Shown piece after piece: positions 30,665 through 64,000 of a stretch of 64,000 nt of DNA. The translations under genes were made by a program, and so were the position numbers. The stretch's first letter is position 1; each line of letters opens with the position of its first letter. The stretch comes from an uncultured Phycisphaerae bacterium. GTDB lineage: Bacteria; Planctomycetota; Phycisphaerae; UBA1845; PWPN01. Location: assembly GCA_938005315.1 (NCBI GenBank), contig CALLOB010000053.1, forward strand, positions 32,194 to 96,193, given 5' to 3'. The notes under the pieces were generated by a model. It had not been told where the DNA came from. It searched no databases and saw only the letters and a program-made list of their open reading frames with translations.

Positions 30665-31684
30665 TCATTCAACTGGTCCGTTGTGCCCGGGTTCGCACGG
30701 GCTCCCGGCCTCCGCTCGAAACGCCGAAACGGCGAACAACGCCGGCCCGGCGAGTTGCCGACCGGCCGCCGGACGGGTGGCCCCCAGCGGCGTGACCCGG
30801 ACCTCGCGGAAACCCGCCCGCCGGACCATCCTCTCCAGCACCGCCGGCTCCATGCCCCAGCCCGGATCGCCCATCCGGTCCCGGAACGCGGCGTTGTCGT
30901 GGACCTCCTGCTCGACGATCAGCAACCGGCCGCCGGAACGCACCACCCGATGCAGCTCCGCCAGCGCCCCGGCCGGTTCCTCCACATGATGCAGCACCAG
31001 CGAGGCGATCGCCAGATCCAGCTCCCCGTCGGCTGCCGGAAGCCGGTCCAGCGAGCCCTGCCGGAATATCAGGTTCTCCACCCCCCGCAGCTCCGGCCGG
31101 CTTCTGGCCGTTTCCAGCATCGCGGCGGAGGGCTCGATGGCGACGACCCTGCGAAACAGCGCCGCCAGCGCCCCCAGCAGATAGCCGGTCCCCGTGCCGA
31201 TATCCCCTGCAACCCACTCGCGCGGCAGCAGCGTCACCAGAGCCTCGAACGGAAACCCCCGGCCGAACGCCTGATTGCGAAGCTGATCCCAACGGCCACC
31301 GACCGTGTCGAAGAACCCGCCGTCGGCCGCACGCCCACTCAGGACCTGCCGGACCCGCTCGGCACACGACGGCTCGATCGGGCGGGCGGTCAGCCACTCG
31401 ACCAGCCGCCGCCGCAGGTCGCCCACGGCCCCGTCGCCGCCGGCGCCCAGGCCGCCGCTGAGGCCGATCGGCGCGGCACTGTACCGTACGCTGGCGGCAC
31501 ATCGCCGATCCACCAGCAGGCCCGCGTCCCGCAACACCCTGAGCTGTCGCGAAACGGTCGATTGCGGCAGCTCGAACACCTCCACCAGCTCGGAGACCGT
31601 CAGCTCGTGATCCACCAGAACCCGCAGGATCGCCTGACGCGTGCTGTCGGCCAACGCCTTGAGCATGAGGTCGGTTTCAGCCAC
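30665..31684 (-). CDS. ArsR-family regulator fused to a methyltransferase domain (SahR-like)
   Basis: 339 residues. Residues 1-90 form an ArsR winged helix ([38 protein letters not shown]) and residues about 165-300 a class I methyltransferase fold ([33 protein letters not shown]). No metal-binding cysteine motif is evident. ArsR-methyltransferase fusions next to ahcY are known as SahR-type regulators that sense S-adenosylhomocysteine and control the SAM cycle; this assignment is by architecture and location. GTG start with GGAGG seven bases upstream. It heads the operon with ahcY. Confidence 0.85.
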
Positions 31685-46942: not shown

Positions 46943-47116
46943 GGAATCAGGTCGCTCCGGTTTTCGGCATCCCCGCGGCCGCCCTCCCGCGGGCGATCAG
47001 GGGTTTGACGCCGGTCGTGGCCCCCCGCCAGGACCATCAGGCCGGCCTTCTCCGTCCCCGTCCGGCCTTCAGGCAGATCCGGTCGGCCCGGATACACACG
47101 AGCGTCGGCCCGCCGG

Positions 47117-47138
47117 AATGTCCCGGAACCTGGACATT
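47117..47138. promoter_or_regulatory. Inverted repeat upstream of moaC, shared with the ttr-like operon
   Basis: Core TGTCCCGGAACCTGGACA (47119-47136) with perfect outer pairs gives 7-bp arms AATGTCC/GGACATT. The reverse complement of 59831-59848 matches this core at 17 of 18 positions. It is a plausible binding site for one regulator of both operons; the protein is unknown. Confidence 0.7.
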
Positions 47139-47292
47139 GCCATCGGAGAACCGCGACGTGAGCGGTTCGATCACGGCATGGGCCCGCGACGCCCACGGAT
47201 GGAACCTTTCGGAACCTTCATCCTCGGCCGCAGCGGCAGCATGTCGCTGCGGTCGCCACGGAACTCCCCGATACGCCGCCGCGGCCGCCGGG

Positions 47293-47333
47293 GCGGGGTC
47301 TTGACGTTTTCCGACCGATCGGTTCTCATCGCC
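47293..47333 (+). promoter_or_regulatory. 41-bp conserved promoter/leader block before moaC
   Basis: Contains TCTTGACGTTTTCCG then CGATCGGTTCT and ATCGCC. It equals the reverse complement of 59517-59557 at 38 of 41 positions. TTGACG (47301-47306) could be a -35, but no good -10 stands 17 bp on. A second, weaker block (47374-47404) also has a counterpart at 59445-59475, separated by 40 and 41 bp respectively. Confidence 0.7.
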
Positions 47334-47586
47334 GTGAGCGCAGTCCGTCTGACACCATCGTGGCTCGATCGCGGATTGAGGATGCCGCCTCCCCGTCGTT
47401 TTCCACGAGGCGTGCATCGTATGACTGAGCCGTTTCAACGGCACGAAAAGGCTCGTCACCATGGGCTTTGTGAAGTCGTACCGCTCGTGTCCTGGTCCGG
47501 GAGTCGGAGCGCTTTCCGGCGATTCCGCACGGGGTGCCCGGACATGACTGAAGTCCTCGCATGCCCTCCCGCGGACCGGGTGAAGG

Positions 47587-48516
47587 ATGTTTGATATCTC
47601 CGCCAAAACCCGGACCGCTCGTGTCGCAACGGCGCGGGCCGTCCTGGCCGTCGCGCCCGACACCATCCGGCTGATCAACGAACGCAGGGTGCCCAAGGGC
47701 GATCCGCTCGAAGTCGCGAGGGTGGCGGCCGTTCAAGCGGCGAAGAACACGCACCAGATCATCCCTTTTTGCCATCCGGTCCCGATCGACCATGTCGCCG
47801 CGGCGTTCGTGCCGGCCGATGATCGCATCGAGCTGACGGTCACGGTCAAGGCGACGTACAAGACCGGAGTCGAGATGGAAGCGCTCACCGGGGCATCGGT
47901 CGGCGTACTGACCCTTTATGACATGCTCAAGATGCTGGACGATTCGATGACGATCCGCGAAGTCCGCCTGCTTGAGAAGCGGGGCGGGAAGTCGGATTTC
48001 AGGACCGCAGGAGCGCGGAAGATCCGTGCCGTCGCCGTGGTCATGTCCGACTCCGTATCGGCGGGATCGAGAGATGATGCATCGGGGCGGCTGATCGCGG
48101 ACCGCCTGCGGGCGGAGGGGATCGAGCTGCTGGATTGCCTCGTGATACCGGACGACGACGACGCGATCGAGCAGACGCTCGTCCGCTGTGCCGACGAGCT
48201 TCGCGTCGACCTGGTCATGACCACGGGTGGCACGGGCCTGGGTCCGCGGGACCGGACTCCCGAGGTCATGGACCGGGTCGTGCAATGCGACGTTCCCGGC
48301 ATCGCGGAGGCCATGCGGGCTTACGGCCGGGATAGGACCCCGTTCGCCGTTCTCTCGCGGGGCCGGGCGGGCATCCGCGGCAGGACGCTGATCGTCAATC
48401 TGCCGGGCTCGCCGCGCGGCGTGGAGGAGTCGCTGGATGCCGTGCTGCCTGCGATCCGCCATGCCTTCCCCATGATGGATGGAGGCGGGCACGACGACGC
48501 CACGGCGGGCCGTTGA
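47587..48516 (+). CDS. moaC: Bifunctional MoaC/MogA molybdenum cofactor biosynthesis protein
   Basis: 309 residues, a fusion. Residues 1-140 are MoaC (cyclic pyranopterin monophosphate synthase) with IIPFCHPVPIDHV and KTGVEMEALTGASVGVLTLYDM, plus the late lysine in LLEKRGGKS. Residues about 148-305 are MogA/MoaB-like molybdopterin adenylyltransferase, with MTTGGTGLGPRDRTPEV and LPGSPRGVEE. One polypeptide therefore carries the second step of pterin formation and the adenylylation before Mo insertion. It heads the plus-strand operon; moeA follows after 10 bp. Confidence 0.92.
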   Translation: MFDISAKTRTARVATARAVLAVAPDTIRLINERRVPKGDPLEVARVAAVQAAKNTHQIIPFCHPVPIDHVAAAFVPADDRIELTVTVKATYKTGVEMEALTGASVGVLTLYDMLKMLDDSMTIREVRLLEKRGGKSDFRTAGARKIRAVAVVMSDSVSAGSRDDASGRLIADRLRAEGIELLDCLVIPDDDDAIEQTLVRCADELRVDLVMTTGGTGLGPRDRTPEVMDRVVQCDVPGIAEAMRAYGRDRTPFAVLSRGRAGIRGRTLIVNLPGSPRGVEESLDAVLPAIRHAFPMMDGGGHDDATAGR

Positions 48517-48526
48517 GGCGGATCAT

Positions 48527-49786
48527 ATGCTGACCTGGGAGCAGGCCCGATCACGCGTCCTGGCGCAGACGCCGGTCCTGGGGCGGCGACGCATCCGCCT
48601 GGAGAGGGCGGCCGGTCGCGCTCTGGCCGAGCCGCTGATCGCCCGGAACGACGCTCCGCCCTTCGATATGTCGGCCGTCGACGGTTTTGCCGTGCATCCC
48701 TCCGACCTGGCCGGCGCCTCGGAGGAGCGGCCTGTCCGCCTGAGGCTCATCGGGACCGTCCATGCCGGGGACGCAGGCGCGAAGAAGCTGCCGAGAGGCA
48801 CGGCGATCAGGATTTTCACCGGTGCCCCCGTGCCGGCCGGCGCCGGAGCGGTGGTGATGAAGGAATACTGCCGGGAGGAGCCGACGGCGGTCATGGTGTC
48901 GCGCGGGACGGCGCCGGGCGAGAATATACGGCCTCGCGGAGGCGAATTCGTCAAAGGCCGGAGGATCCTGCCCCCCGGCACCGCCATCACGCCGCCGGTC
49001 GCCGGCCTGCTGGCGGCGTTTGGATATGCGAACGTGCTCGTGCATGACGTCCCGACGGTGACCATCGCCGTCACCGGAGATGAACTGCTCCCGCCGTCGC
49101 AATCACTGCGGCCGGGCAGGATCCGCGACGCCAACTCCTGCGCACTGGCGGCCGCGGTGCGGGGCCTGGGCATCGGGAAGTGCCGCACGATGCGATTGAA
49201 GGACCGCGTCGCCGTGCTCGGGCGGCGCCTGGCGGACGGACTCGAGCGGTCGGATGTGCTGTTGACGGTCGGCGGCATGTCGGTCGGCGACCGCGATCAC
49301 GTTCGCGGCGTCCTGCACGACCTGGGCGTCAGGGAGCACTTCTGGCGGATTGCGGTCAAGCCCGGAAAGCCGGCGTATTTCGGGAAGTATGTTCATCGCG
49401 GCGGCAGGGGCGCGGGCGGCCGTCGAGGGGGCGGGACCTGCCTGGTGTTCGGGCTGCCGGGCAACCCCGTGTCGGCACTGGTGTGCTTCCACCAGCTGGT
49501 CAGGCCGGCGCTGCTGAAAATGATGGGCAGGCCGTCACCCGCCCCGCTGGTTCTTCGTGCCCGGCTGCTCGGCGGGAGAAGCAAATCGCCCGGGCGGCTG
49601 GAGTGGCTCCGGGGCGTGCTGTCTTCGGAGAGCGGCGACCTGCGCGTGAAAGTCGTTCCGGGCCAGGATTCGCACATGCTGGGCGGCCTGGCCGCGGCGA
49701 ACTGTCTGATCGAATTCCCCCGGGAGGCCGATCGCCTCGCCGACGGCCAAGAAGTGATGGTGGAGCCTTTGTCATGGCGCGAGTGA
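48527..49786 (+). CDS. moeA: Molybdopterin molybdenumtransferase MoeA
   Basis: 419 residues. The N-terminal domain has APPFDMSAVDGFAV, then IFTGAPVPAGAGAVVMKE, the central domain SVGDRDHVRG (normally GGVSVGD; here GGMSVGD), and the GLPGNPVSALVCF phosphate loop. It inserts molybdate into adenylylated molybdopterin made by the MogA part of the preceding protein. ATG 48527 has GAGG eight bases upstream. A Gly/Arg-rich insert (GGRGAGGRRGGG, about residues 292-303) precedes the phosphate loop. Confidence 0.93.
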   Translation: MLTWEQARSRVLAQTPVLGRRRIRLERAAGRALAEPLIARNDAPPFDMSAVDGFAVHPSDLAGASEERPVRLRLIGTVHAGDAGAKKLPRGTAIRIFTGAPVPAGAGAVVMKEYCREEPTAVMVSRGTAPGENIRPRGGEFVKGRRILPPGTAITPPVAGLLAAFGYANVLVHDVPTVTIAVTGDELLPPSQSLRPGRIRDANSCALAAAVRGLGIGKCRTMRLKDRVAVLGRRLADGLERSDVLLTVGGMSVGDRDHVRGVLHDLGVREHFWRIAVKPGKPAYFGKYVHRGGRGAGGRRGGGTCLVFGLPGNPVSALVCFHQLVRPALLKMMGRPSPAPLVLRARLLGGRSKSPGRLEWLRGVLSSESGDLRVKVVPGQDSHMLGGLAAANCLIEFPREADRLADGQEVMVEPLSWRE

Positions 49787-50307
49787 ACGAGGCCCGGCCG
49801 GCCACCGGTACCGTGGTGGCGATTTCCGTCAGCCGGCGGAAGGGAATCCCCAAGACCAACGTCCCCTGGGCGGACCTCAGGCCCGACTGGGGCATCGAGG
49901 GCGATGCCCACGCCGGGCGCTGGCATCGCCAGGTCAGCCTGCTGGCCGTGGAGAGTATCGAGAAGATGCGGGCCGGGGGGCTCCGGGTCGGTCCCGGCGA
50001 CTTCGCGGAGAACGTGACCACCGCGTTCATCGACATCCCGCATCTGGCGGTCGGGGACCGGGTCAGAATCGCGCGGACCGAGCTGGAGATCACGCAGATC
50101 GGCAAGGAGTGCCACGCGCGGTGCGGCGTCTTTCAGGCGGCCGGCGACTGCGTGATGCCCAGAGAAGGCGTTTTCGGCCGGGTCGTGGTCGGCGGACGCA
50201 TCCGTGTCGGCGATGCGGTGGAAGTGGTCCGCGTCACCGGCACCGGAGACCCCGCCCCACCCGAGGCCGATCGCGGTCCCTCCCTCCGGACCGAGCCCTG
50301 CCCATGA
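49774..50307 (+). CDS. MOSC domain protein
   Basis: 177 residues with a MOSC fold (beta-strand domain related to Moco sulfurase C-termini). Features are GDAHAGRWHRQVSLLAVESIE, the GDFAENVTT turn, and KECHARCGVFQAAGDCVMP with the conserved cysteines. MOSC proteins bind molybdopterin-type cofactors and may carry sulfur or a terminal ligand. The start overlaps moeA by 13 bases and has GGAG eight bases upstream. The stop overlaps the transporter start as ATGA. A second, different MOSC protein lies in the facing operon. Confidence 0.88.
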   Translation: MARVNEARPATGTVVAISVSRRKGIPKTNVPWADLRPDWGIEGDAHAGRWHRQVSLLAVESIEKMRAGGLRVGPGDFAENVTTAFIDIPHLAVGDRVRIARTELEITQIGKECHARCGVFQAAGDCVMPREGVFGRVVVGGRIRVGDAVEVVRVTGTGDPAPPEADRGPSLRTEPCP

Positions 50308-51563
50308 CGATCGGGGGCACACGAAAGGCGACCGGAGCCGTCGGCTCGACCCGTTTGCGACTGCGGTTCAGCCGCTCGGAAGCCTCCGGCGCGCTGGGCG
50401 ACCTCGGCACGTTCATCCCGCTGCTCGTCGGCACGGTCCACAACTGCGGATTGCAGCTCGGGCCCGCCCTGTTCCTGGCGGGCCTCATGAACGTCATCAC
50501 CGGCCTGACCTTCGGCATCCCGATGCCCGTGCAGCCGATGAAGGCCATCGCCACCGTGGCCATGGCGGAGGGATTCGATGAATCACGGATTCTCGCGGCC
50601 GGGATCCTCACGGGGGCGGCCCTGCTGGTCCTCGCCGGGACCGGCCTGATCGACCTTCTTCAGCGCATCCTTCCCCGGAGCGTGGTTCGGGGTCTGCAGC
50701 TGGCGCTCGGCCTGAAGCTGATCGAACTCGGTCTCCGCCAGGTCGTCTCCACCGGCGTCTGGATCGGCTGGGACAGCATCGGTCTGGGGCTGGCCTGTGC
50801 GATTCTGCTGCTGCTGTTCTACTTCTCGACCCGCGTACCGGGGGCGCTGATCACCTTCGGCATCGGACTGATCGCCCTGGTCTGCGGAAACCCCGCGATC
50901 GTATCGCAGGCCCGTCTCGGCATGCCCTGGCACCTTCCGAGCCTGGCGGATCCCGGCGACTGGGCGACGGGCTTCTGGAAAGGCACGATCCCCCAGCTGC
51001 CGCTGACGGTCCTCAATTCGGTGGTGGCGGTGTGCGCGCTCTCCGCCGATCTGTTCCCGGGGCGGGGCGCCCGGCCCCGACACGTGACGCTGTCGGTGGC
51101 ACTGATGAATCTGGCCTGCTGCCCGCTGGGAGCGATGCCGATGTGCCATGGCGCCGGCGGGCTGGCCGGGCAATACCGCTTCGGCGCCCGGACCGGCGGC
51201 AGCGTCGTGATGCTCGGCATCGCCAAGATGGGTCTTGCCCTTGCATTCGGGGGCTGCCTGCTTCCATGGTTGAAGGGATACCCGCAATCCGTGCTGGGTA
51301 TTCTGCTGCTGTTCGGCGGGCTCGAACTGGCCATGGTCTGCCGCGACCAGACCGGCAGGGCGGACTTTTTCGTCATGGTGCTCACCGCGGGGGCATGCAT
51401 GGCGATGAACGCCGCAGCGGGGTTCATCGTAGGCTGGGCCATGGCCTCGACCCTGATGTGGGGCGTCTTCCGGATCGAGCCTCCGCACGGCGACGCGTCC
51501 AGAGGCCGGGGGCCCGACGTCATGAACGCTGAAACAGGCTCTCGTAGCTCCGGGGGGTGTTGA
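50304..51563 (+). CDS. MOT1-type molybdate/sulfate transporter
   Basis: 419 residues, about ten membrane helices. The two family motifs are visible: SGALGDLGTFIPLLVG near the N-terminus and CHGAGGLAGQYRFGARTGG in the second half. This is the MOT1 branch of SulP-like carriers, known for molybdate uptake in plants and algae, and annotated as molybdate or sulfate transporters in bacteria. Its place in a Moco operon favours molybdate. No ModABC genes are in the window. Its 3' end overlaps that of mobA on the other strand by 44 bp. Confidence 0.88.
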   Translation: MTIGGTRKATGAVGSTRLRLRFSRSEASGALGDLGTFIPLLVGTVHNCGLQLGPALFLAGLMNVITGLTFGIPMPVQPMKAIATVAMAEGFDESRILAAGILTGAALLVLAGTGLIDLLQRILPRSVVRGLQLALGLKLIELGLRQVVSTGVWIGWDSIGLGLACAILLLLFYFSTRVPGALITFGIGLIALVCGNPAIVSQARLGMPWHLPSLADPGDWATGFWKGTIPQLPLTVLNSVVAVCALSADLFPGRGARPRHVTLSVALMNLACCPLGAMPMCHGAGGLAGQYRFGARTGGSVVMLGIAKMGLALAFGGCLLPWLKGYPQSVLGILLLFGGLELAMVCRDQTGRADFFVMVLTAGACMAMNAAAGFIVGWAMASTLMWGVFRIEPPHGDASRGRGPDVMNAETGSRSSGGC

Positions 51564-52128
51564 GGTTCGTGAGCATGTCCTTCTCCTCCGAGGCCGCATC
51601 GAGCGTGACGACCCGGACCGCCGACAGCAGGTTCTGCAGGCTGCGGCGGCCGCCTTCCAATTCGCGAACGACGGCCGGCAACACGCGCGGATGGTAAAGC
51701 GCGCAACAGGCGTGCCAGGCCTCCCGCCGACCCGTCTGCCGGAAGGCGACCGCATCGCATTGCGGCGTCGCCGCACCCCATAATCGCTCAAGCAGCCTCG
51801 GCCGCAACAGCGGCATGTCGCAGGCCAGCAGAAGGCCCCATCGGGACCGGGCGTAATCGAGGAGCGATCGCAATCCGGCCAGGGGCCCGGCCCCCGGATC
51901 GCCGTCCGGAAGCCTTCTCACTCCGGCCAGCCCCACGGGCAACGCCCCGCATTCGCCCAACAGAACGGATTCATCGATCCACGGGCCGGCCCGGGCCGCG
52001 ACGCTGAACACATGCTCCACAAGGGTTCCGCCGCCGGGCAGCGGCAGCGCGGCCTTGGGCCGACCCATGCGGACGCTTCGTCCGCCCACCAGAATGCCGC
52101 ATACGCAGGACGCGTGATCCGCGCTCAT
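51520..52128 (-). CDS. mobA: Molybdenum cofactor guanylyltransferase MobA
   Basis: 202 residues. The nucleotide-binding ILVGGRSVRMGRPKAALPL matches the MobA L-x-G-G-x-S-x-R-M-G-x-x-K motif, and LLLACDMPLLRPRL holds the metal aspartate. It attaches GMP to Mo-molybdopterin, forming the bis-MGD cofactor needed by DMSO-reductase-family enzymes such as the catalytic subunit encoded in this operon. Last gene of the minus-strand operon. Confidence 0.9.
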   Translation of the reverse strand: MSADHASCVCGILVGGRSVRMGRPKAALPLPGGGTLVEHVFSVAARAGPWIDESVLLGECGALPVGLAGVRRLPDGDPGAGPLAGLRSLLDYARSRWGLLLACDMPLLRPRLLERLWGAATPQCDAVAFRQTGRREAWHACCALYHPRVLPAVVRELEGGRRSLQNLLSAVRVVTLDAASEEKDMLTNLNTPRSYESLFQRS

Positions 52129-52151
52129 GGGATCGCCCCCCGGACGACCGG

Positions 52152-52655
52152 TCACGGCCCCGTGTCCTCGCGCCGCCCGGCACGCTCGACATGCACGCGT
52201 TGCCCCGGTGAAAGCGGGCCGGGCTCGATGACCCGGCAGAGGAATCCGCAGCGGCCGACAACGGCATCCTTGAGGTCCGGATGAATCGCATCGAGCACGT
52301 AGCACGGTTTGCGGACCGAGGCCAGTTCGAGGACCGGCCCATCCTGAAAGCGCAGCCGGTCCCCGACGGCAAGGGTCTGAACGCCCAGACCCCGCACGGT
52401 GATGTTCTCGCCCATGACCCCGGGCCCGACCGGGTAGCCTTCGGCCGCGAGTTCCTCGAGCAGCTCGATATCCTGGATGGAGACGGCGCGGTCCGCCCGA
52501 CGATGCTTTTCGTGGGCTCGTCCATCGCCTGCGAGCCCATCGAACGTCACCTCGGCCCGCTCGATCGGACGTTTGGGCACCCCGCCCGGCGACACGCACA
52601 CGGCGACGACGACTCCGGGCGCTTCGGGGCCGTTCGTTCGCTGCGACTGCTTCAT
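52152..52655 (-). CDS. MOSC domain protein
   Basis: 167 residues. MOSC family features: VAVCVSPGGVPKRPIERAEV at the start, GDGRAHEKHRRADRAVSIQD, and VMGENITVRGLG, followed by a conserved cysteine in VRKPCYVLD. It differs clearly from the MOSC protein at 49.8 kb. Likely handles or senses the molybdenum cofactor. It lies between moaA and mobA with short gaps. Confidence 0.88.
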   Translation of the reverse strand: MKQSQRTNGPEAPGVVVAVCVSPGGVPKRPIERAEVTFDGLAGDGRAHEKHRRADRAVSIQDIELLEELAAEGYPVGPGVMGENITVRGLGVQTLAVGDRLRFQDGPVLELASVRKPCYVLDAIHPDLKDAVVGRCGFLCRVIEPGPLSPGQRVHVERAGRREDTGP

Positions 52656-52703: not shown

Positions 52704-53717
52704 TCATCCTCCGATCGAGATCATCCGCCTTCTCTGGGTTCGCCGTCCGAACCGCGGTTTGGCCATGACGGCCGCCTGCAGAATCCGGTCGGCGGCCTCC
52801 TCATCCAGCCGGCCGCCGTTCCAGGCCGCGGCCAGACTCCATCCCCCCGCGTCGAATAGACACGACAGGATCTCGCCCCGGGAGGTGACGCGGAGCCGGC
52901 GACAGCTCGTGCAGAACGGCCGAGTCATCGAAGCGATCACGCCCACGATTCCGGCCGGACCGCCGCCCACGACGCTCGCAGCGGCATAGTCGGTCGCGGC
53001 CTGTTCGACCGGGGAGGCGATCGGCTCCAGGGTGAACCGCCTGGAGAGGCGATCGAGGATCTCCGCCGCGGGAACCAGGCGCTCCCGGCAGACCGTCGCC
53101 TCCGGTCCGACAGGCATCATCTCGAGAAACCGGACGGTGCATCCCCGCGAAAGCCCCCACTCGCACAGTTCGCACAACTCGTCATCATTGATGCCGCGCT
53201 GGACGACAACGTTCAGACGGACCGGTCGAAGGCCGGCCGCGATGGCCGCTTCGATGCCGCGAACCGTGCGGGCGAGATCTCCGCCGCGCGTGAGCCGGGC
53301 GAAGCGCCGGGGATGCAGCGTATCCAGCGAGACGTTCACCCGCGTCAGACCGGCCCGCCTGAGGCGCTCGGCGCTGACCGCGAGGGCCTGGCCGTTCGTC
53401 GTCAGCGTGATCTCGTTCAGGCTGCACAGCCGCGCCATCGACGACACCATATGCAGCAGTTGCGGGTGCAGAAGCGGTTCGCCGCCGGTCAGCCGCACGT
53501 GACGAACGCCGTGCCGCCCGGACAGCCATCGGACCACGGCGACGGCGAAGGCCTCGTCGATATGGCAGGGCGATCCGGCCCCGGCGGCAGCGCAGTACCG
53601 GCATGCCAGATTGCACCGGTCGGTCAGCGACAGGCGCAGACGATCGATGCGGCGCCCCCAGCCGTCGATGAGCGGCCCGAGGGGATCGGCGGAAGGTTCA
53701 CCCGATGCGGTGATCAC
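52704..53717 (-). CDS. moaA: GTP 3',8-cyclase MoaA
   Basis: About 337 residues. A radical SAM motif CNLACRYC (cysteines about 35, 39 and 42) is followed by RLTGGEPLLHP. A C-terminal second cluster has CTSCRRLRVTSRGEILSC, including the GTP-site arginines. It converts GTP to 3',8-cyclo-GTP, the first step of molybdenum cofactor synthesis; the MoaC part encoded at 47.6 kb acts next. The canonical C-terminal Gly-Gly is present (ISIGG). GTG 53717 has GGAG nine bases upstream; GTG 53759 would add 14 residues. Confidence 0.92.
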   Translation of the reverse strand: MITASGEPSADPLGPLIDGWGRRIDRLRLSLTDRCNLACRYCAAAGAGSPCHIDEAFAVAVVRWLSGRHGVRHVRLTGGEPLLHPQLLHMVSSMARLCSLNEITLTTNGQALAVSAERLRRAGLTRVNVSLDTLHPRRFARLTRGGDLARTVRGIEAAIAAGLRPVRLNVVVQRGINDDELCELCEWGLSRGCTVRFLEMMPVGPEATVCRERLVPAAEILDRLSRRFTLEPIASPVEQAATDYAAASVVGGGPAGIVGVIASMTRPFCTSCRRLRVTSRGEILSCLFDAGGWSLAAAWNGGRLDEEAADRILQAAVMAKPRFGRRTQRRRMISIGG

Positions 53718-53873
53718 ATTCCATTTCTCCGGCCGGGCGGGCACGACACCCGCGAACACAGGCCCGGGCCCGCGACCGGGGAGGCGATGCGGCCGCCGGG
53801 CGCGAGCCCGCCTTCCGGGGTCTTCGGAAGGCCGGCCCGGCGGCCGGGGGACCGGACTGCGGGATCGTTCGGA

Positions 53874-56800
53874 TCATTCCTTCACCGGCAGCAACGTGAC
53901 GCAGGTATCATAGAAGCTCACGCTTCCCCCGACGGGATCGAACATGCACGTATTTTGGATCACCGGGTCGGTCCACATGGCTGCATTGGCGTGAACGCCT
54001 CTGCTGCGGCGAGGTTCGCCGCGGATCACGTGCCCGTCGATCACCACATCGCAGGCCCCCGTGGCCCAGTGGCCGAAACCGAGCGCAAAGCTGACCACTC
54101 CCGGACGCACCGTCTGTGTCACGATCACCCTTGCGGTCAGCGGCCTGGAGCGGTCATCCCCGGGCCGATAGAGCCCCTGCGTGTTGGTCGCACTGACGAT
54201 CCTGACCATCTGGCCGTGCCGCAACGCCAGACGCCCGGCGTCGCTGGGGTGCACAAGGACCCCATTGTCGGGCATCAGGGCCGAGAGCCATGGATCGGCC
54301 ACCGTCCGGCTCTTCGTCTGCGAAATGACGCGGTGCGTGACCAGGGCCAGTTCATGGTTGTGCCGGTATGCATCCACGGCCTTGCCGTCGAATCCCAGGA
54401 CGGGGAGATACGTCGCGCAGCCGGGATGGGGCTGCCCGGTTCCGGAATGCATCGTGGATGCGGTCTTCTCCTGGTACAGGTTCAGCAGGGCCGCATAGGG
54501 ATGGGCCACGCGATCGCCCTTGTAGGCCCGTTCATGATCCTCGAACCGGCCGCCGCGGTTCAGCACATAGACGACCTTCGGCCACATCCGCTCGCCGACG
54601 ATGGTGCGCCAGCGGTCGGCGTCGAAGACCGGGGCGGGGAGGTGCCGGCGGGACTTCATGAAAAGATCGATTTCGGCGGCATCCGCATCCGGCACCGCCT
54701 GCGAGCCGTCGGGTTTCTCGCCGAACGCGAGATTGGCGACCGCCCGCAGGTAGAAGTCGTCCGGATGCCTCAGCGGAAGCGGGGAGCCGGATTCGTCCCT
54801 GCCGAAACCCGCGTCCCCGAAGCCCGGGAGGCCGAGGTATTCGGCGATTCCCAGGATCATCGCCTCGAACGACAGTGGCACGCTCTGGCCGTAGACCCGA
54901 CAGCTCTCCGGGATGGGCGCGATCACCGGCTGACGCACGGGCTGGACCTTGTGGGGCATGTTCGGATGACTCCCCTGAAATTCCCATCGTTCCAAGAAGG
55001 AGAGGTCCGGAAAGATGTAATCGGCATACATGGAGGTCGGGCCGATGACGATGTCGTTGGCCACAAAGAGGGGCAGTTTGTTGACATCCGAGAGGATCTC
55101 TGCGTTGGTATGGCCGGCCGGCAACGCATAGGTCGGGGCCCCCATGTACAGAAAGAGCGCCTTGACCGGGTACGGATAGGCGTCGCCGATGGAGGGAATG
55201 ATCTCCTCGTAGACATCCGACGCCAGGGGATACCAGTTCCGCTTCGCCGGATAGCCCTCGAAGAGGGTCGTCTTCTCGTATTCCAGGCCGTGGCGGATCG
55301 AACTGATGCCGAAGGCGCCGATCCTGCCGGGATGAGCCTCGAGATCGAAGAGCTTCCCTTTGCCCTTCGTGTCGAACGTGGTGGCCTTGATCATGCCGCC
55401 CGTGGCATCGAAATTGCCCAAAAGCATGTTGAGCGTCATCCACGCCAGAACGTTGTAGAAGCCGTTCGTGTGCTGGGCCGCGCCGCGATGCACGTCCACG
55501 GCGGCCATCCTGCCGTAGCTGGTGAGTTCCCGGGCCGTGGCCACCACATCGCGCTCCCGCACATCCGCGATGGCGGCCCACTCGGCGACCGTCTTCTGCC
55601 GGGCCTGCTCCAGAAGGATCTGGAGGGCGGACTTCACCTCGGTTCCGTCGGGCAGCGTGGCATCCACGAACAGATCGCCGCGCATCGGCACCTTGTCGTC
55701 GTTCGGGTCGACGGCGGTGAAGCGGCCCTCCGTCATGATCACCATGAATGACTCGTCGTAATCTTTCTGGAGCTTCGATTCCGGATCGATGTAGGTGCGC
55801 TTTTCGGCTTGGCGCAACGGCCTGCCTTCGACGATGGTCTCGCAGGCCCGCAGGAACCTGCCGGGCTTCCCGTCCCTGCAGACCACCAGCCATGTGGCGT
55901 TGCACCAGCAGGTCTCGCCGGCGGCGATCGCCGCGGCCTTGTTGGCGTTGCTCAGAAAGGCGGCATCGTACCGCTGCTGCTCCAGGATCCAGCGGATCAT
56001 GGCCATGGCCAGCGCCGCGTCCGTGCCGGGCCTGAGCGGCAGCCATTTCCAGGCCTTGCTGGCAAGCTTGCTGAAGCGTGGATCTGCGACCGCGATTTTC
56101 GTGCGGCCGCTGACGAGGTTGCCCGTCAATCGGGCCGTGCGGTTGGGAGGCCCGTAGTTGGCCTCGAAAAGATTGGCGCCGACGAAAAGAATGAAGCGAC
56201 TGTTCTCGGTGTCCGCCTGCCAGTAGAATTTACGCCCGTCCGTGAATCGCCCGCCGATGTACTGCTCGCTGATGGCCTTGCACGTGAAATAGAGCGATCC
56301 CTGGCAGACCGTGGTATGCCCGTGGGCATTGACCGTGCCCAGTGCGGCGGCAAAACGCCTGTACAGGTCGCCCCGGCCGTCCTTCAACCGGCCCCAGGCG
56401 CAGACGATCTGGTTGTTCCTCGGCCCCAGATCGGGATGCTCGGGGTCGATGAGCTTCTGCAGATGGGATGCGTGCTTCGACCTGAACGCTTCAACCAGCT
56501 TCGCTTTCGCGGCCGCGTCCTTCGCCTCCCAGATGGCCTTGACGTCCGCCTGAAGCGACCCGGCGAGCTCCGGATCGGTCACGGTCATGAGGGCCTTGAG
56601 CCCTTCGACCACGCGATCCTCCTCGCCGGGGATGTCGGCGAAGATCCTTCCGCCCTCGCAGATCTCCCTGATCGCCTGCTCGAACGGGATCGTGATCCAC
56701 TTGTTCTCTCCACGCTTTCCGGCCCGTTTGAGGACTTTCCGGATCCGGTAGGGGTCGTAGGCCGTCTGCAGACCGGCCTGGCCCTTGGGACAGATGGCTC

Positions 56801-57149
56801 CGTCGACCGCTGCCGCTTCCCGGATCCCGGTGGCGTAGGGCAGGTGAGGCACAAGCGTCCAGGGGTTGTATGGATTCCCGTCGATCTTGGTGACCACGCC
56901 GCCCTGCAGCTTGCACTTGATGCCGCAGCCGGTGTTGCACTGGAGACAGGCCGAATAGAGGATGTTTTCAAGCTCGGCCAGCTCGTAGGGGGCGTCGGGC
57001 CGCCTGCTGTTGAGGATCGCGTTCCCGCCCGATGGCCCGCCGGCCGCCGACTCCGCGGAATCCGCCGCGAGGAACACCCCCCCCAACATCGCTCCGCCGG
57101 CCAGAAACCGCCGCCTGGATTGCCGGTCCGAATCGTTTTTCTGCGTCAC
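53874..57149 (-). CDS. Molybdopterin catalytic subunit, tetrathionate/selenate reductase (TtrA) type
   Basis: 1091 residues. A Tat signal (SRRRFLAGGAMLGGVF) is followed by a 4Fe-4S motif C68-x2-C71-x3-C75 and C120, then the large bis-MGD domains of the DMSO reductase family. Blocks such as GKRGENKWITIPFEQAI, MIRWILEQQRYDAAFL and FYLRAVANLAFG resemble TtrA of Salmonella as I recall it. C282 in HTTVCQGSLYF is the likely molybdenum ligand. Known members reduce tetrathionate, thiosulfate or selenate outside the cytoplasmic membrane; the substrate here is unknown and oxidation cannot be excluded. GTG start with GAGG overlapping the preceding stop. Gene order B-C-A matches ttrBCA. Confidence 0.85.
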   Translation of the reverse strand: MTQKNDSDRQSRRRFLAGGAMLGGVFLAADSAESAAGGPSGGNAILNSRRPDAPYELAELENILYSACLQCNTGCGIKCKLQGGVVTKIDGNPYNPWTLVPHLPYATGIREAAAVDGAICPKGQAGLQTAYDPYRIRKVLKRAGKRGENKWITIPFEQAIREICEGGRIFADIPGEEDRVVEGLKALMTVTDPELAGSLQADVKAIWEAKDAAAKAKLVEAFRSKHASHLQKLIDPEHPDLGPRNNQIVCAWGRLKDGRGDLYRRFAAALGTVNAHGHTTVCQGSLYFTCKAISEQYIGGRFTDGRKFYWQADTENSRFILFVGANLFEANYGPPNRTARLTGNLVSGRTKIAVADPRFSKLASKAWKWLPLRPGTDAALAMAMIRWILEQQRYDAAFLSNANKAAAIAAGETCWCNATWLVVCRDGKPGRFLRACETIVEGRPLRQAEKRTYIDPESKLQKDYDESFMVIMTEGRFTAVDPNDDKVPMRGDLFVDATLPDGTEVKSALQILLEQARQKTVAEWAAIADVRERDVVATARELTSYGRMAAVDVHRGAAQHTNGFYNVLAWMTLNMLLGNFDATGGMIKATTFDTKGKGKLFDLEAHPGRIGAFGISSIRHGLEYEKTTLFEGYPAKRNWYPLASDVYEEIIPSIGDAYPYPVKALFLYMGAPTYALPAGHTNAEILSDVNKLPLFVANDIVIGPTSMYADYIFPDLSFLERWEFQGSHPNMPHKVQPVRQPVIAPIPESCRVYGQSVPLSFEAMILGIAEYLGLPGFGDAGFGRDESGSPLPLRHPDDFYLRAVANLAFGEKPDGSQAVPDADAAEIDLFMKSRRHLPAPVFDADRWRTIVGERMWPKVVYVLNRGGRFEDHERAYKGDRVAHPYAALLNLYQEKTASTMHSGTGQPHPGCATYLPVLGFDGKAVDAYRHNHELALVTHRVISQTKSRTVADPWLSALMPDNGVLVHPSDAGRLALRHGQMVRIVSATNTQGLYRPGDDRSRPLTARVIVTQTVRPGVVSFALGFGHWATGACDVVIDGHVIRGEPRRSRGVHANAAMWTDPVIQNTCMFDPVGGSVSFYDTCVTLLPVKE

Positions 57150-57157
57150 GGGATACC

Positions 57158-58345
57158 TCACGCCGGAGACGCGGTCCACCGGGCCGCCCACGCGTTGATC
57201 CGCTCGCCCAGATGGAAAACCGCCATGCCTGCGGCGACCAGAAACAGACCGACCAGGTATTCCATGGCCGTCGCGTGGTAGATGTACTTCAGACGATCAT
57301 GCTGGAAGGCTTCCTGCAATCCCTCGATTTCACCGACGGCCTGACCGGGCACGAGTACGTTGAGACGGGCGCTGACGAAGGCAACCGCCACCAGAAAGGC
57401 GGCCAAGGTCCACGCCGCCCGCCGCCGCGTCAGCAGCAGGCCCAGGGGAATCGCGCCGCCGAGCAGCAGGTGGACGATCCAGAATACCCACCAGTAGGGC
57501 CCCCAGAGGATCAGCTCGATGGCCGGAGCGTGAACGTCGGGATTCCACAGGGCAATCGAGAATTCGGCGAATTCGAAGACGAAATACACCATCAGTCCGG
57601 CGAGGGTGACGTTCCGCAGATACCGTAAGGCCGCGCAGCCGGTCCCGCAATCGTCTTTGAATTGAAACACCGCCAGAACAAAGAGCAGCATGGCCGCGCC
57701 CGCGGTGATCGCGGAGGCCAGGAAAAGCATGGGCAGCAGGGCGCTGTGCCAGAAGCCCTTCGCGCCCACCACGCCGAAGAAGGCGCCGCTCTGACTCGGA
57801 AAGAGAATGGAAAACATGATGGCCAGGCACAGCAGGGGCTTCAGCCAGCCCGACCGTTCCCTGAACGAGAGCAGCCAGCACGCGACCGCGATCATCATGA
57901 ACGCGTTGTACATCCATGCATTGAAGGCCATCATGCTCGTGAAACTCGGCGAAAGGAAGATGGCCGGGGCCCGCTCGGGACGCCCCAGATCCAGCCATAC
58001 CCCCATGAAGGCGGGAATGATGGCGGCGATGGCGAGAACGACGACCGTCCGCAGAACATCCCGGCGGTCGAGCCCCGGCACGCCGAGCACGAATCCGCCG
58101 GCGCCCAGCACGAACGCGCCGCCGGCGATCCCGACGCCGTGGAAGTAGAGCGCCACCCAGAGCCCCCAGGGCACATAGGAGCCGTAGCCCGCCGGCAGAT
58201 GCCCGCCGGCGACGCGCTGACCGATGCCGATCAGGCCGAGGCCCGCCAGCACCGCCCAGATGGTCCACAGCAGGCGCCGAGGCCCGTTGCCCCGGCGACC
58301 GACCCCGCCACATGCTCCGGCCGCACCCGTTCCGACGTTCGTCAT
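57158..58345 (-). CDS. NrfD/PsrC-type quinone-interacting membrane subunit
   Basis: 395 residues with about nine membrane helices, including GLWVALYFHGVGIAGGAFVL and IPAFMGVWLDLGRPERAPAI, the latter a typical NrfD segment. It exchanges electrons between the membrane quinone pool and the four-cluster Fe-S subunit, completing a B-C-A complex with its neighbours. It starts 51 bp after the Fe-S subunit gene and its TGA overlaps the ribosome-binding site of the catalytic subunit gene. Confidence 0.9.
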   Translation of the reverse strand: MTNVGTGAAGACGGVGRRGNGPRRLLWTIWAVLAGLGLIGIGQRVAGGHLPAGYGSYVPWGLWVALYFHGVGIAGGAFVLGAGGFVLGVPGLDRRDVLRTVVVLAIAAIIPAFMGVWLDLGRPERAPAIFLSPSFTSMMAFNAWMYNAFMMIAVACWLLSFRERSGWLKPLLCLAIMFSILFPSQSGAFFGVVGAKGFWHSALLPMLFLASAITAGAAMLLFVLAVFQFKDDCGTGCAALRYLRNVTLAGLMVYFVFEFAEFSIALWNPDVHAPAIELILWGPYWWVFWIVHLLLGGAIPLGLLLTRRRAAWTLAAFLVAVAFVSARLNVLVPGQAVGEIEGLQEAFQHDRLKYIYHATAMEYLVGLFLVAAGMAVFHLGERINAWAARWTASPA

Positions 58346-58396: not shown

Positions 58397-59299
58397 TCAC
58401 GCGATGTAATAGACCCTCGGCCGCGTCCCCTTGTGGGGCAGGAGCGTATGAACATTGTGTCTTGCGATCAGCTCCGTCACGACACCGTCGGGATCGCTGA
58501 TATCGCCGAAATAGGTCGCCCGGCCGATGCAGGTTGTCACGCAGACGGGAAGCTCGCCGTGTTCGAGACGGTGCAGACAGAAGTGACACTTGCGGGCGTT
58601 GCCCATCGGGCTCCGGTGGCCGCCGCGGCTCCAGCGCTTGCCGTACTCGTGGTTGGGCTGATCCTCCCAGGGCGCACGCCCCCCGCTGACCGCAACGCCG
58701 TCCGCGCCCACCGCGGCAGCATCGGTGTAATACTCGCCGAAATCGCTGGTCCGGGCGCCATAGGGGCACGCGGTCAGGCAGTATCGGCAGCCGATGCACT
58801 TGTCATAATCGACCACCGTGACACCGTCCGCCCGTCGCCATGTCGCCCGGACCGGACACACCGGCACGCACGGCGGCTTCTCGCACTGCATGCACGGCCG
58901 GGGCGTGAACTTCAGGTGAACGTTCGGATACTCCCCCCCTTCCTCCGTCACGACCGGCCGGTAGACCACGCCCGGCGGCAGCTTGTTCTCCGCGACGCAT
59001 CCGATGGTGCAGGCATGACAGCCGACGCACTTGCGCTGGTCGATGACCATCGCCCATCGGCGCTGCTCCATCGGCTTGGCCATCGCTTTCACCAGGTCCC
59101 GCTGCATCTGGATCAGCAGATCCTCCCCGATCCGGGGAGGCACGCCATCCAGAGCGGAGAGATGCCGGATGGTTTCCTGTCCCCGGGGGTCTCCGGTGTG
59201 GCGCGGCCGGCGGTCCCGTATGACCAGAGTCGCCGTCGCAGCCAGGCCCGCACCGGCCAGAGCGCCGGCCTTCACGAATTCACGTCTGTCCATCGACAT
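58397..59299 (-). CDS. Tat-exported four-cluster Fe-S subunit (TtrB/PsrB type)
   Basis: 300 residues. The signal [16 protein letters not shown] carries the twin arginines. Four cysteine groups follow for four 4Fe-4S clusters: [37 protein letters not shown], and CHFC with later CVTTC. It wires electrons between the NrfD subunit and the catalytic subunit. First gene of the six-gene minus-strand molybdenum operon. ATG 59299 has GGAGG six bases upstream. Confidence 0.92.
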
Positions 59300-59516
59300 G
59301 GGTGGCCTCCGGATGCCCCGGGGTTCGGGAAGCCGGACACTGCCGCTGCGCGCCCGTCACGATAAACTCTTCCCGATACGACGCCCTCGATGCGGCGGCG
59401 ATGGCGCCTCACCCGGACGAACGTGGAAAAACATCCTGCCCCGCGGGAAACGACATCGGTGCGGCGTCCTCCATCACAGCTTGTCACGGCGACGTAGCAG
59501 CAGAATGGGCTCCGAT

Positions 59517-59557
59517 GGCGATCAGAACCGATCGCCCGGAAAACGTCAAGACCCCGC
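59517..59557 (-). promoter_or_regulatory. 41-bp conserved promoter/leader block before the Fe-S subunit gene
   Basis: Reverse complement of the block at 47293-47333 with 38 of 41 identities. In this copy the 3' part forms GGCGATC-GGTTCT-GATCGCC, a perfect 7-bp hairpin. The related 31-bp block follows 41 bp downstream (59475-59445) with 23 of 31 matches to 47374-47404. Confidence 0.7.
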
Positions 59558-59809
59558 ATCGGAGGGATGCGCATGAAGCTCCGGCGGTGCGACCGGATCT
59601 TCCGGAAGCTCCGGCCCGGGAAGAGGACCGGCGGATGCGGACCGACGCGCTCCTCAACAGTCTGGAACCCCACCCGGGCCGGACACGCCGGCGGCGCACG
59701 CAGGGGTTCTACGGTCACCTCAACGGCGTGCCGTCCCGCCGGTGACGCCGGCAGCCGCAAGGACCCATTCGGAGGCCGCGCAGGTCCATGAGACGATCGA
59801 TCCGGCTGC

Positions 59810-59848
59810 GTCCCGGTTCTGGGACGGCGGTGTCCGGGTTCCGGGACA
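59810..59848. promoter_or_regulatory. Two inverted repeats 22 bp apart, shared with the moaC upstream region
   Basis: GTCCCGGTTCTGGGAC (59810-59825) and TGTCCGGGTTCCGGGACA (59831-59848) have centres 22 bp apart, two helical turns. The second is, on the other strand, the same site as 47119-47136 with one change. This spacing suggests cooperative dimers of one regulator. Confidence 0.65.
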
Positions 59849-60097
59849 TCCCGGTCCGCCGGGAGCCGTCCGGGTCGCAGAACCTGCGGAAGCGCCCGCG
59901 GCGCGGCGACGCAACCGACGCGATGATCCCGGAACTGCGGCCGAAGTGACCTGCGGCCACTTCTGATGCCGACCGGCATGTGCGTCCGGAAGCCGGGTGT
60001 CCGGGAGTCGAGCCGCGGGGGGAGCCGGCCCGGCCTGTCGTGCGGGCGCTTTCAGGTCCGGCGCATCACCGAGGCGGCCCCGTCCGCCGGCCGGCGG

Positions 60098-63377: not shown

Positions 63378-64000
63378 ATGCTGCGGATCGGCCGGCTGGA
63401 GCTGGACAGTCCGGTGGTGCAGGCGGCGCTGAGCGGCTACAGCGACCTGCCCATGCGCCGCGTCGCGCGGCTGCTGGGGGCGGGCTATACGCTCAATGAA
63501 GTGGTGCTGGACAAGCTGGTTCTGACCCGCGGCCGCAGACAACGGGCGATCACGCGCGTGGCACCGGACGACCACCCCGTGGGGGGTCAGCTCATGGGGG
63601 CCGAGCCTGGGGCCTTCGCCCGGGCGGCCGACGCGCTGGTCGAAGCCGGCTATGACGTCGTGGACATCAATTTCGGCTGCCCGGTGCGCAAGGTCCTGGG
63701 CCGCTGCCGGGGCGGGTACCTGTTGTCGGTGCCTGAAACGGCCCTGGCGATCGTGAAGGCCGTGGTCGAAGCGGTGGCGGGGCGGCGGCCGGTAACACTG
63801 AAGATGCGCCGCGGCATGGACGACTCGCCCGCAAGCGAGCGGGCCTTCTTCACCATTCTGGACGGAGCCTTTGAGGCCGGCATCGACGCGGTGACGGTGC
63901 ACGGCCGGACGGTCAGGCAGCGCTACGTCGGGCCCAGCGACTGGGGGTTCCTGGCCCGCGTCAAGCGACACGTCGGCGGACGGACGGTGCTGGGCAGCGG
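63378..64000 (+). CDS. dus: tRNA-dihydrouridine synthase, 3' end outside the window
   Basis: The first 207 codons of a DusB-like protein; the gene continues past the right edge. Translation gives LELDSPVVQAALSGYSDLPMRR, then VDINFGCPVRKVLGRCRGGYL with the catalytic cysteine of Dus enzymes (in GRCRGGYL), and VTVHGRTVRQRYVGPSDW with the FMN-contacting histidine and arginine. The enzyme reduces uridines in the D loop of tRNA using FMN and NADPH. No clear ribosome-binding site, consistent with a leaderless transcript. Confidence 0.88.
   Translation, partial: MLRIGRLELDSPVVQAALSGYSDLPMRRVARLLGAGYTLNEVVLDKLVLTRGRRQRAITRVAPDDHPVGGQLMGAEPGAFARAADALVEAGYDVVDINFGCPVRKVLGRCRGGYLLSVPETALAIVKAVVEAVAGRRPVTLKMRRGMDDSPASERAFFTILDGAFEAGIDAVTVHGRTVRQRYVGPSDWGFLARVKRHVGGRTVLGS

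Follow-up and report, generated by a model that had tools for sequence, protein, structure and literature searches.

The two palindromes at positions 59810-59848 of the window (the whole stretch of DNA that was analysed, 64,000 nucleotides) are part of a regulatory region that is present twice, once upstream of a molybdenum (Mo) enzyme operon and once upstream of a converging operon for Mo cofactor. This is the new result of the analysis. The features of the two copies make it probable that the two halves of a split operon are under the joint control of one putative dimeric regulator via the duplicated region, which is denoted A-B(-C) after its blocks.

The gene cluster and the paired palindromes

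The palindromes belong to a 12-kb cluster in which a plus-strand cofactor operon converges on a minus-strand enzyme operon. Every gene in the two operons is either a Mo-cofactor or a Mo-enzyme gene:

58397-59299, minus strand: 4Fe-4S subunit (TtrB/DsrO/NrfC-like; here Fd), first gene of the enzyme operon
57158-58345, minus strand: NrfD-type membrane subunit
53874-57191, minus strand: molybdopterin oxidoreductase (MoOR) catalytic subunit, 1105 aa, closest to TtrA
52704-53759, minus strand: moaA
52152-52655, minus strand: MOSC
51520-52152, minus strand: mobA
47587-51563, plus strand: the cofactor half, with a moaC-mog fusion, moeA, MOSC and the MOT1 molybdate transporter

A single 309-aa ORF (47587-48516) carries moaC fused with a mog/moaB-type (MoCF_biosynth) domain. 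The enzyme resembles TtrABC and the polysulfide/thiosulfate reductases in its catalytic Mo subunit, four-cluster ferredoxin subunit and NrfD membrane subunit. It differs from TtrABC in the order Fd-nrfD-MoOR, with cofactor genes added in the relatives, and in its scores against the NCBIfam equivalogs, which are 471 bits for the catalytic subunit (TtrA cut-off 1750) and 174 bits for the Fe-S subunit (TtrB cut-off 416). Both scores are far below the cut-offs, and the enzyme does not class as a tetrathionate reductase by them. No transcription-factor gene was found in or beside the cluster up to the end of the contig at 64000. Elsewhere in the window, at 30665-31684, an ArsR-type HTH is fused to a SAM methyltransferase domain.

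The palindromes are situated upstream of the enzyme operon in a gap of about 800 bp (a 798-bp intergenic region), in which no GC3 coding signature was detected:

59831-59848: palindrome 1, farther from the Fd gene, TGTCCGGGTTCCGGGACA, arms TGTCC/GGACA
59810-59825: palindrome 2, GTCCCGGTTCTGGGAC, 5-bp perfect arms GTCCC/GGGAC

The first-pass annotation had proposed this pair, and both palindromes are present with the centre spacing of 22 bp that it gave (centres at 59817.5 and 59839.5). Its description of the spacing as exactly two helical turns was slightly overstated, the distance being 2.1 turns at 10.5 bp per turn, or about 34 degrees off; the placement on one face of the helix holds, since at such a spacing both dyads lie nearly on the same side. 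Cooperative binding to tandem operators on one helix face is a general arrangement for homodimeric bacterial transcription factors.

Dyad symmetry alone is weak evidence against chance. When the 798-bp intergenic region was resampled under a first-order Markov model, the summed dyad score was equalled at 22 bp in 17 of 300 cases, and the same dyad quality at any spacing of 18-32 bp appeared in 173 of 300. The palindromes are also identical to each other at 14 of 16 positions with both dyads scoring at least 6/8, a combination that 2000 resamples did not yield at all at 22 bp and yielded once when any spacing of 17-42 bp was allowed; no other pair of palindromes at least 13/16 identical occurs across the 64-kb window. 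The two copies of one palindrome are not a product of chance.

The duplicated control region

Similarity to the DNA around the palindromes was found upstream of moaC, in three blocks that follow the same order and face inward from both ends of the cluster:

59755-59854, minus strand: block A, Fd copy, a 100-bp module with both palindromes
47113-47212, plus strand: block A, moaC copy
59517-59565, minus strand: block B, Fd copy, a 49-bp predicted core-promoter module
47285-47333, plus strand: block B, moaC copy, containing TTGACG-N17-TCTCAT
59438-59475, minus strand: block C, Fd copy, a 38-nt leader patch
47374-47411, plus strand: block C, moaC copy

The block A copies are 73% identical, ungapped, over 100 bp, and the block B copies are 88% identical over 49 bp; the similarity of A and of B exceeds all 1000 resamples. 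Block C is a weaker shared leader block (p=0.006), located 41 nt (Fd) and 40 nt (moaC) after block B, and forms a short conserved patch in 5' leaders that are long in both operons (about 215 and 250 nt). Upstream of A the copies are unrelated (p=0.77), and so they are in the A-B interval (p=0.57), which also differs in length (189 bp on the Fd side vs 72 bp on the moaC side). The moaC upstream region is 12 kb away from the Fd upstream region and faces inward; the two do not make up a divergent promoter.

In a search of the 3.76-Mb genome, blocks A and B were restricted to these two places, and the palindrome with at most one mismatch was found only at these two loci; the 14-mer CTTGACGTTTTCCG with at most one mismatch has one additional match, on contig C40. 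A genome-wide regulon was rejected, because palindrome matches with three mismatches were no more frequent than the control, and so was a dispersed (REP-like) repeat, of which there would be two copies only. Coding of block A was likewise rejected: the copies share an ORF-like resemblance (MSRN.D.A..EP), but their mismatches by codon phase (11/9/7) show no periodicity.

The moaC copy of block A holds two sites, one of them degenerate:

47119-47136: intact moaC-side site, TGTCCCGGAACCTGGACA (core 47120-47135, GTCCCGGAACCTGGAC)
47142-47157: degenerate second moaC-side site, ATCGGAGAACCGCGAC, in the same 22-bp register

The intact site is identical to palindrome 1 at 17 of 18 positions. The earlier proposal of a single clear site on the moaC side is correct as to this one intact site, but it overlooked the degenerate second one, whose dyad score is 5/9 vs 7/9, as well as the duplication of the region as a whole. 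Because a decayed second site persists on the moaC side, the asymmetry between the two upstream regions is only one of degree, decayed vs intact. The different regulator responses that the annotation predicted for the two promoters are therefore conjectural; under the favoured explanation the enzyme side, with its two intact sites, would carry the stronger module and may give the stronger response.

The differences between the block A copies suggest, but do not prove, selection on the palindromes themselves. At site 1, one of 18 positions differs, vs 26 of the other 82 positions of A (Fisher p=0.037, from a comparison of only two paralogous copies); the suggestion goes no further because, with any 18-bp stretch of A allowed, the permutation p-value is 0.335, and because site 2 is conserved no better than its surroundings (p=0.40). 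In the chief rival explanation, the two regions would be a relic of duplication, in which upstream DNA was copied when an ancestral operon split and one half was inverted, the palindromes being non-binding and selection acting on promoter B only. That A and B lie as inverted copies on either side of precisely this cluster, that site 2 decays at the background rate and that the conservation of site 1 is marginal all agree with such an origin. Pure decay, however, is not expected to retain A at 73% while the A-B interval is randomised and differs in length (189 vs 72 bp), and a tandem palindrome of this quality is beyond chance; we regard this explanation as rather unlikely.

Predicted promoters lie within block B on both sides:

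59521-59549, minus strand: predicted sigma70-type promoter, Fd side, TTGACG-N17-TCTGAT, best in the region, 9/12 match
47301-47329, plus strand: predicted sigma70-type promoter, moaC side, TTGACG-N17-TCTCAT, best sigma70 match of the region
59518-59535, minus strand: dyad GCGATC-GGTTCT-GATCGC over the predicted -10 element, a possible separate operator

A stricter consensus scan of the Fd upstream region reported no promoter, on account of the -10 element. The centre of the -10 dyad, GGTTCT, also occurs in palindrome 2, and the dyad is imperfectly kept at moaC (47316-47331). Site 1 and the -35 element are 290.5 bp apart on the Fd side vs 173.5 bp on the moaC side; the difference of 117 bp is about 11.1 turns, so the helical phase is roughly equal in both copies. 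The arrangement resembles known tandem dimer operators in that two near-identical palindromes 22 bp apart precede an operon and a second operon of the same pathway has a copy. It is unlike them in that the sites here precede the predicted starts by about 190-330 bp instead of surrounding the promoter, which is unusually far for a sigma70-type start.

Inverted repeats could also belong to a structured RNA or to the terminator of the upstream mannosidase gene, which is on the same strand and ends 250-290 bp before them. This is highly improbable: no terminator-like site was found in the region, blocks A and C show no excess RNA folding (z-scores near zero or positive; -0.25 and 0.15 in one test), no Rfam match, including the Moco riboswitch, was obtained at E up to 5, and the same module stands before moaC, there after a tRNA gene.

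Relatives of the operon and their regulatory genes

Among the 114 genomes searched in the order, the operon is present in one other, with a ferredoxin subunit 76% identical; it is widespread but patchy beyond the order, occurring in scattered Planctomycetota, Verrucomicrobia and Desulfomonile-like genomes. Neither the palindromes nor block B are seen in the 205 bp that the contig of that one relative still offers before the first gene. They were likewise not found upstream of the operon in the more distant relatives, and there is no close relative among those compared. The 113 other genomes searched in the order yielded no credible copy of block A or B, nor was there any credible copy in the class (about 400 genomes; 397 in the search with B and C). 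Two matches were discarded: a 34-nt match of block B in genome G485 (E=5e-4, 397 genomes) is chance-like and falls inside the coding sequence of an unrelated gene, and a site with two mismatches at 2678 of locus L045 is within the nrfD coding sequence and was ascribed to chance. Relatives without the sites are also what a duplication relic would leave.

In relatives with linked cofactor genes, such as L045 and L049, these and the enzyme genes follow one another collinearly as a single operon, and the split into converging halves is therefore probably the derived arrangement. The regulation of this operon has evidently changed repeatedly, and the absence of the sites from distant relatives thus does not refute them: a sigma54 activator and a receiver-domain protein are encoded upstream of the operon in L055, a receiver-domain protein in L049, and Rrf2-family regulators in other relatives. 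The L055 activator gene (a bEBP gene) is one reason to consider that a sigma54 activator might use the palindromes as enhancer-type sites and reach the promoter by looping over 200-300 bp. About eleven bEBPs are encoded in the present genome, and bEBP sites are typically tandem palindromes in helical phase at some distance. Nevertheless, this is an unlikely explanation, because the best -24/-12 promoter in either upstream region matches only 6/11 defined positions, none is conserved between the two regions, and the conserved core is sigma70-like.

An Rrf2-family gene directly precedes Fd in eight relatives (L045, L047, L126, L062, L067, L143, L144 and L057), for instance at 206-736 in L045, where it overlaps the Fd start, and at 7277-7690 in L047. 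Such Rrf2-headed Fd-nrfD-MoOR operons occur in several phyla and may represent a hitherto undescribed regulon in which Rrf2 proteins govern TtrA-like enzymes. No Rrf2 gene is linked to the operon of the window in its upstream region, and tblastn gave no match to an Rrf2 remnant in the gap of about 800 bp.

The palindromes might instead be sites of an Rrf2-family repressor that was relocated elsewhere in the genome, and since this metagenome-assembled genome is only 90% complete, an Rrf2 gene may be missing from it. We consider this quite unlikely despite the eight linked genes. The genome's own Rrf2 proteins reach no more than 39% full-length identity with the operon-linked ones, whereas those of L045 and L047 share 62%; one of the own genes precedes an iscS-type gene, and the window's sites are absent upstream of the own Rrf2 genes. 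Moreover, the only operator-like dyad kept between the congeneric genomes L143 and L144 is unlike the sites of the window. This dyad, ATGACC-TTAT-GGTCAT (L143; one change in L144), lies inside the conserved promoter TTGACnAAATGACC before the Rrf2 gene (upstream of 7223 in L143 and of 10877 in L144), and is likely an autoregulatory site. Block B has a dyad of its own over the predicted -10 element, with another sequence. In comparison with known Rrf2 regulation (IscR, NsrR, RirA, CymR, the SUF regulator), the Rrf2 gene at the head of the relatives' operons is a likeness, while the operon studied here has no such gene and a palindrome that departs from the L143/L144 dyad in sequence and position. 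Searches of the literature turned up neither this operator nor any Rrf2 control of such operons.

Candidate co-regulation of enzyme and cofactor supply

The alternatives of a sigma54 enhancer, an unlinked Rrf2 protein, an RNA structure, a coding sequence, a terminator and a dispersed repeat are less likely or rejected. Under the favoured explanation, the palindromes would be two adjacent candidate sites for one homodimeric transcription factor, and module A would act with the sigma70-type core promoter predicted in B. The shared A and B modules make a common regulator plausible, and with the A-B(-C) region at both operons, facing inward from both cluster ends, the same regulator would switch the Mo oxidoreductase and its cofactor supply together. 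When the operon split, the copied control region would have kept the halves co-regulated. The analysis shows the sites, the duplicated modules with dissimilar DNA between them, their confinement to two places and the collinear operon of the relatives; from these we infer the regulator and its binding, the promoters, the direction of control and the stronger response on the enzyme side.

Three points chiefly weaken this co-regulation reading. There is no regulator gene nearby, where one would usually be expected for a regulator that has just two or three sites in the genome; the sites are far from the predicted promoter; and close relatives are lacking, while those compared do not have the sites. 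As to the history of the cluster, it is possible, and proposed here tentatively, that the lineage lost its Rrf2 regulator, split the operon and kept co-regulation through the duplicated region and a new regulator; the second operator would then be decaying on the moaC side, turning equal into graded control.

A Moco riboswitch or ModE would control the same class of genes. The riboswitch has no Rfam counterpart here, and the operator is, we presume, unrelated to the ModE consensus.

A duplicated promoter region is fairly ordinary gene regulation, and the finding, if true, would be of relevance to specialists in Mo-enzyme regulation, leaving general understanding unchanged. If true, the favoured explanation would describe a compact two-promoter regulon that links a Mo respiratory-type enzyme to its cofactor supply, and would add an example from a Planctomycetota lineage with few known operators. 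It would also offer a natural comparison of one vs two operator sites in otherwise matching promoters.
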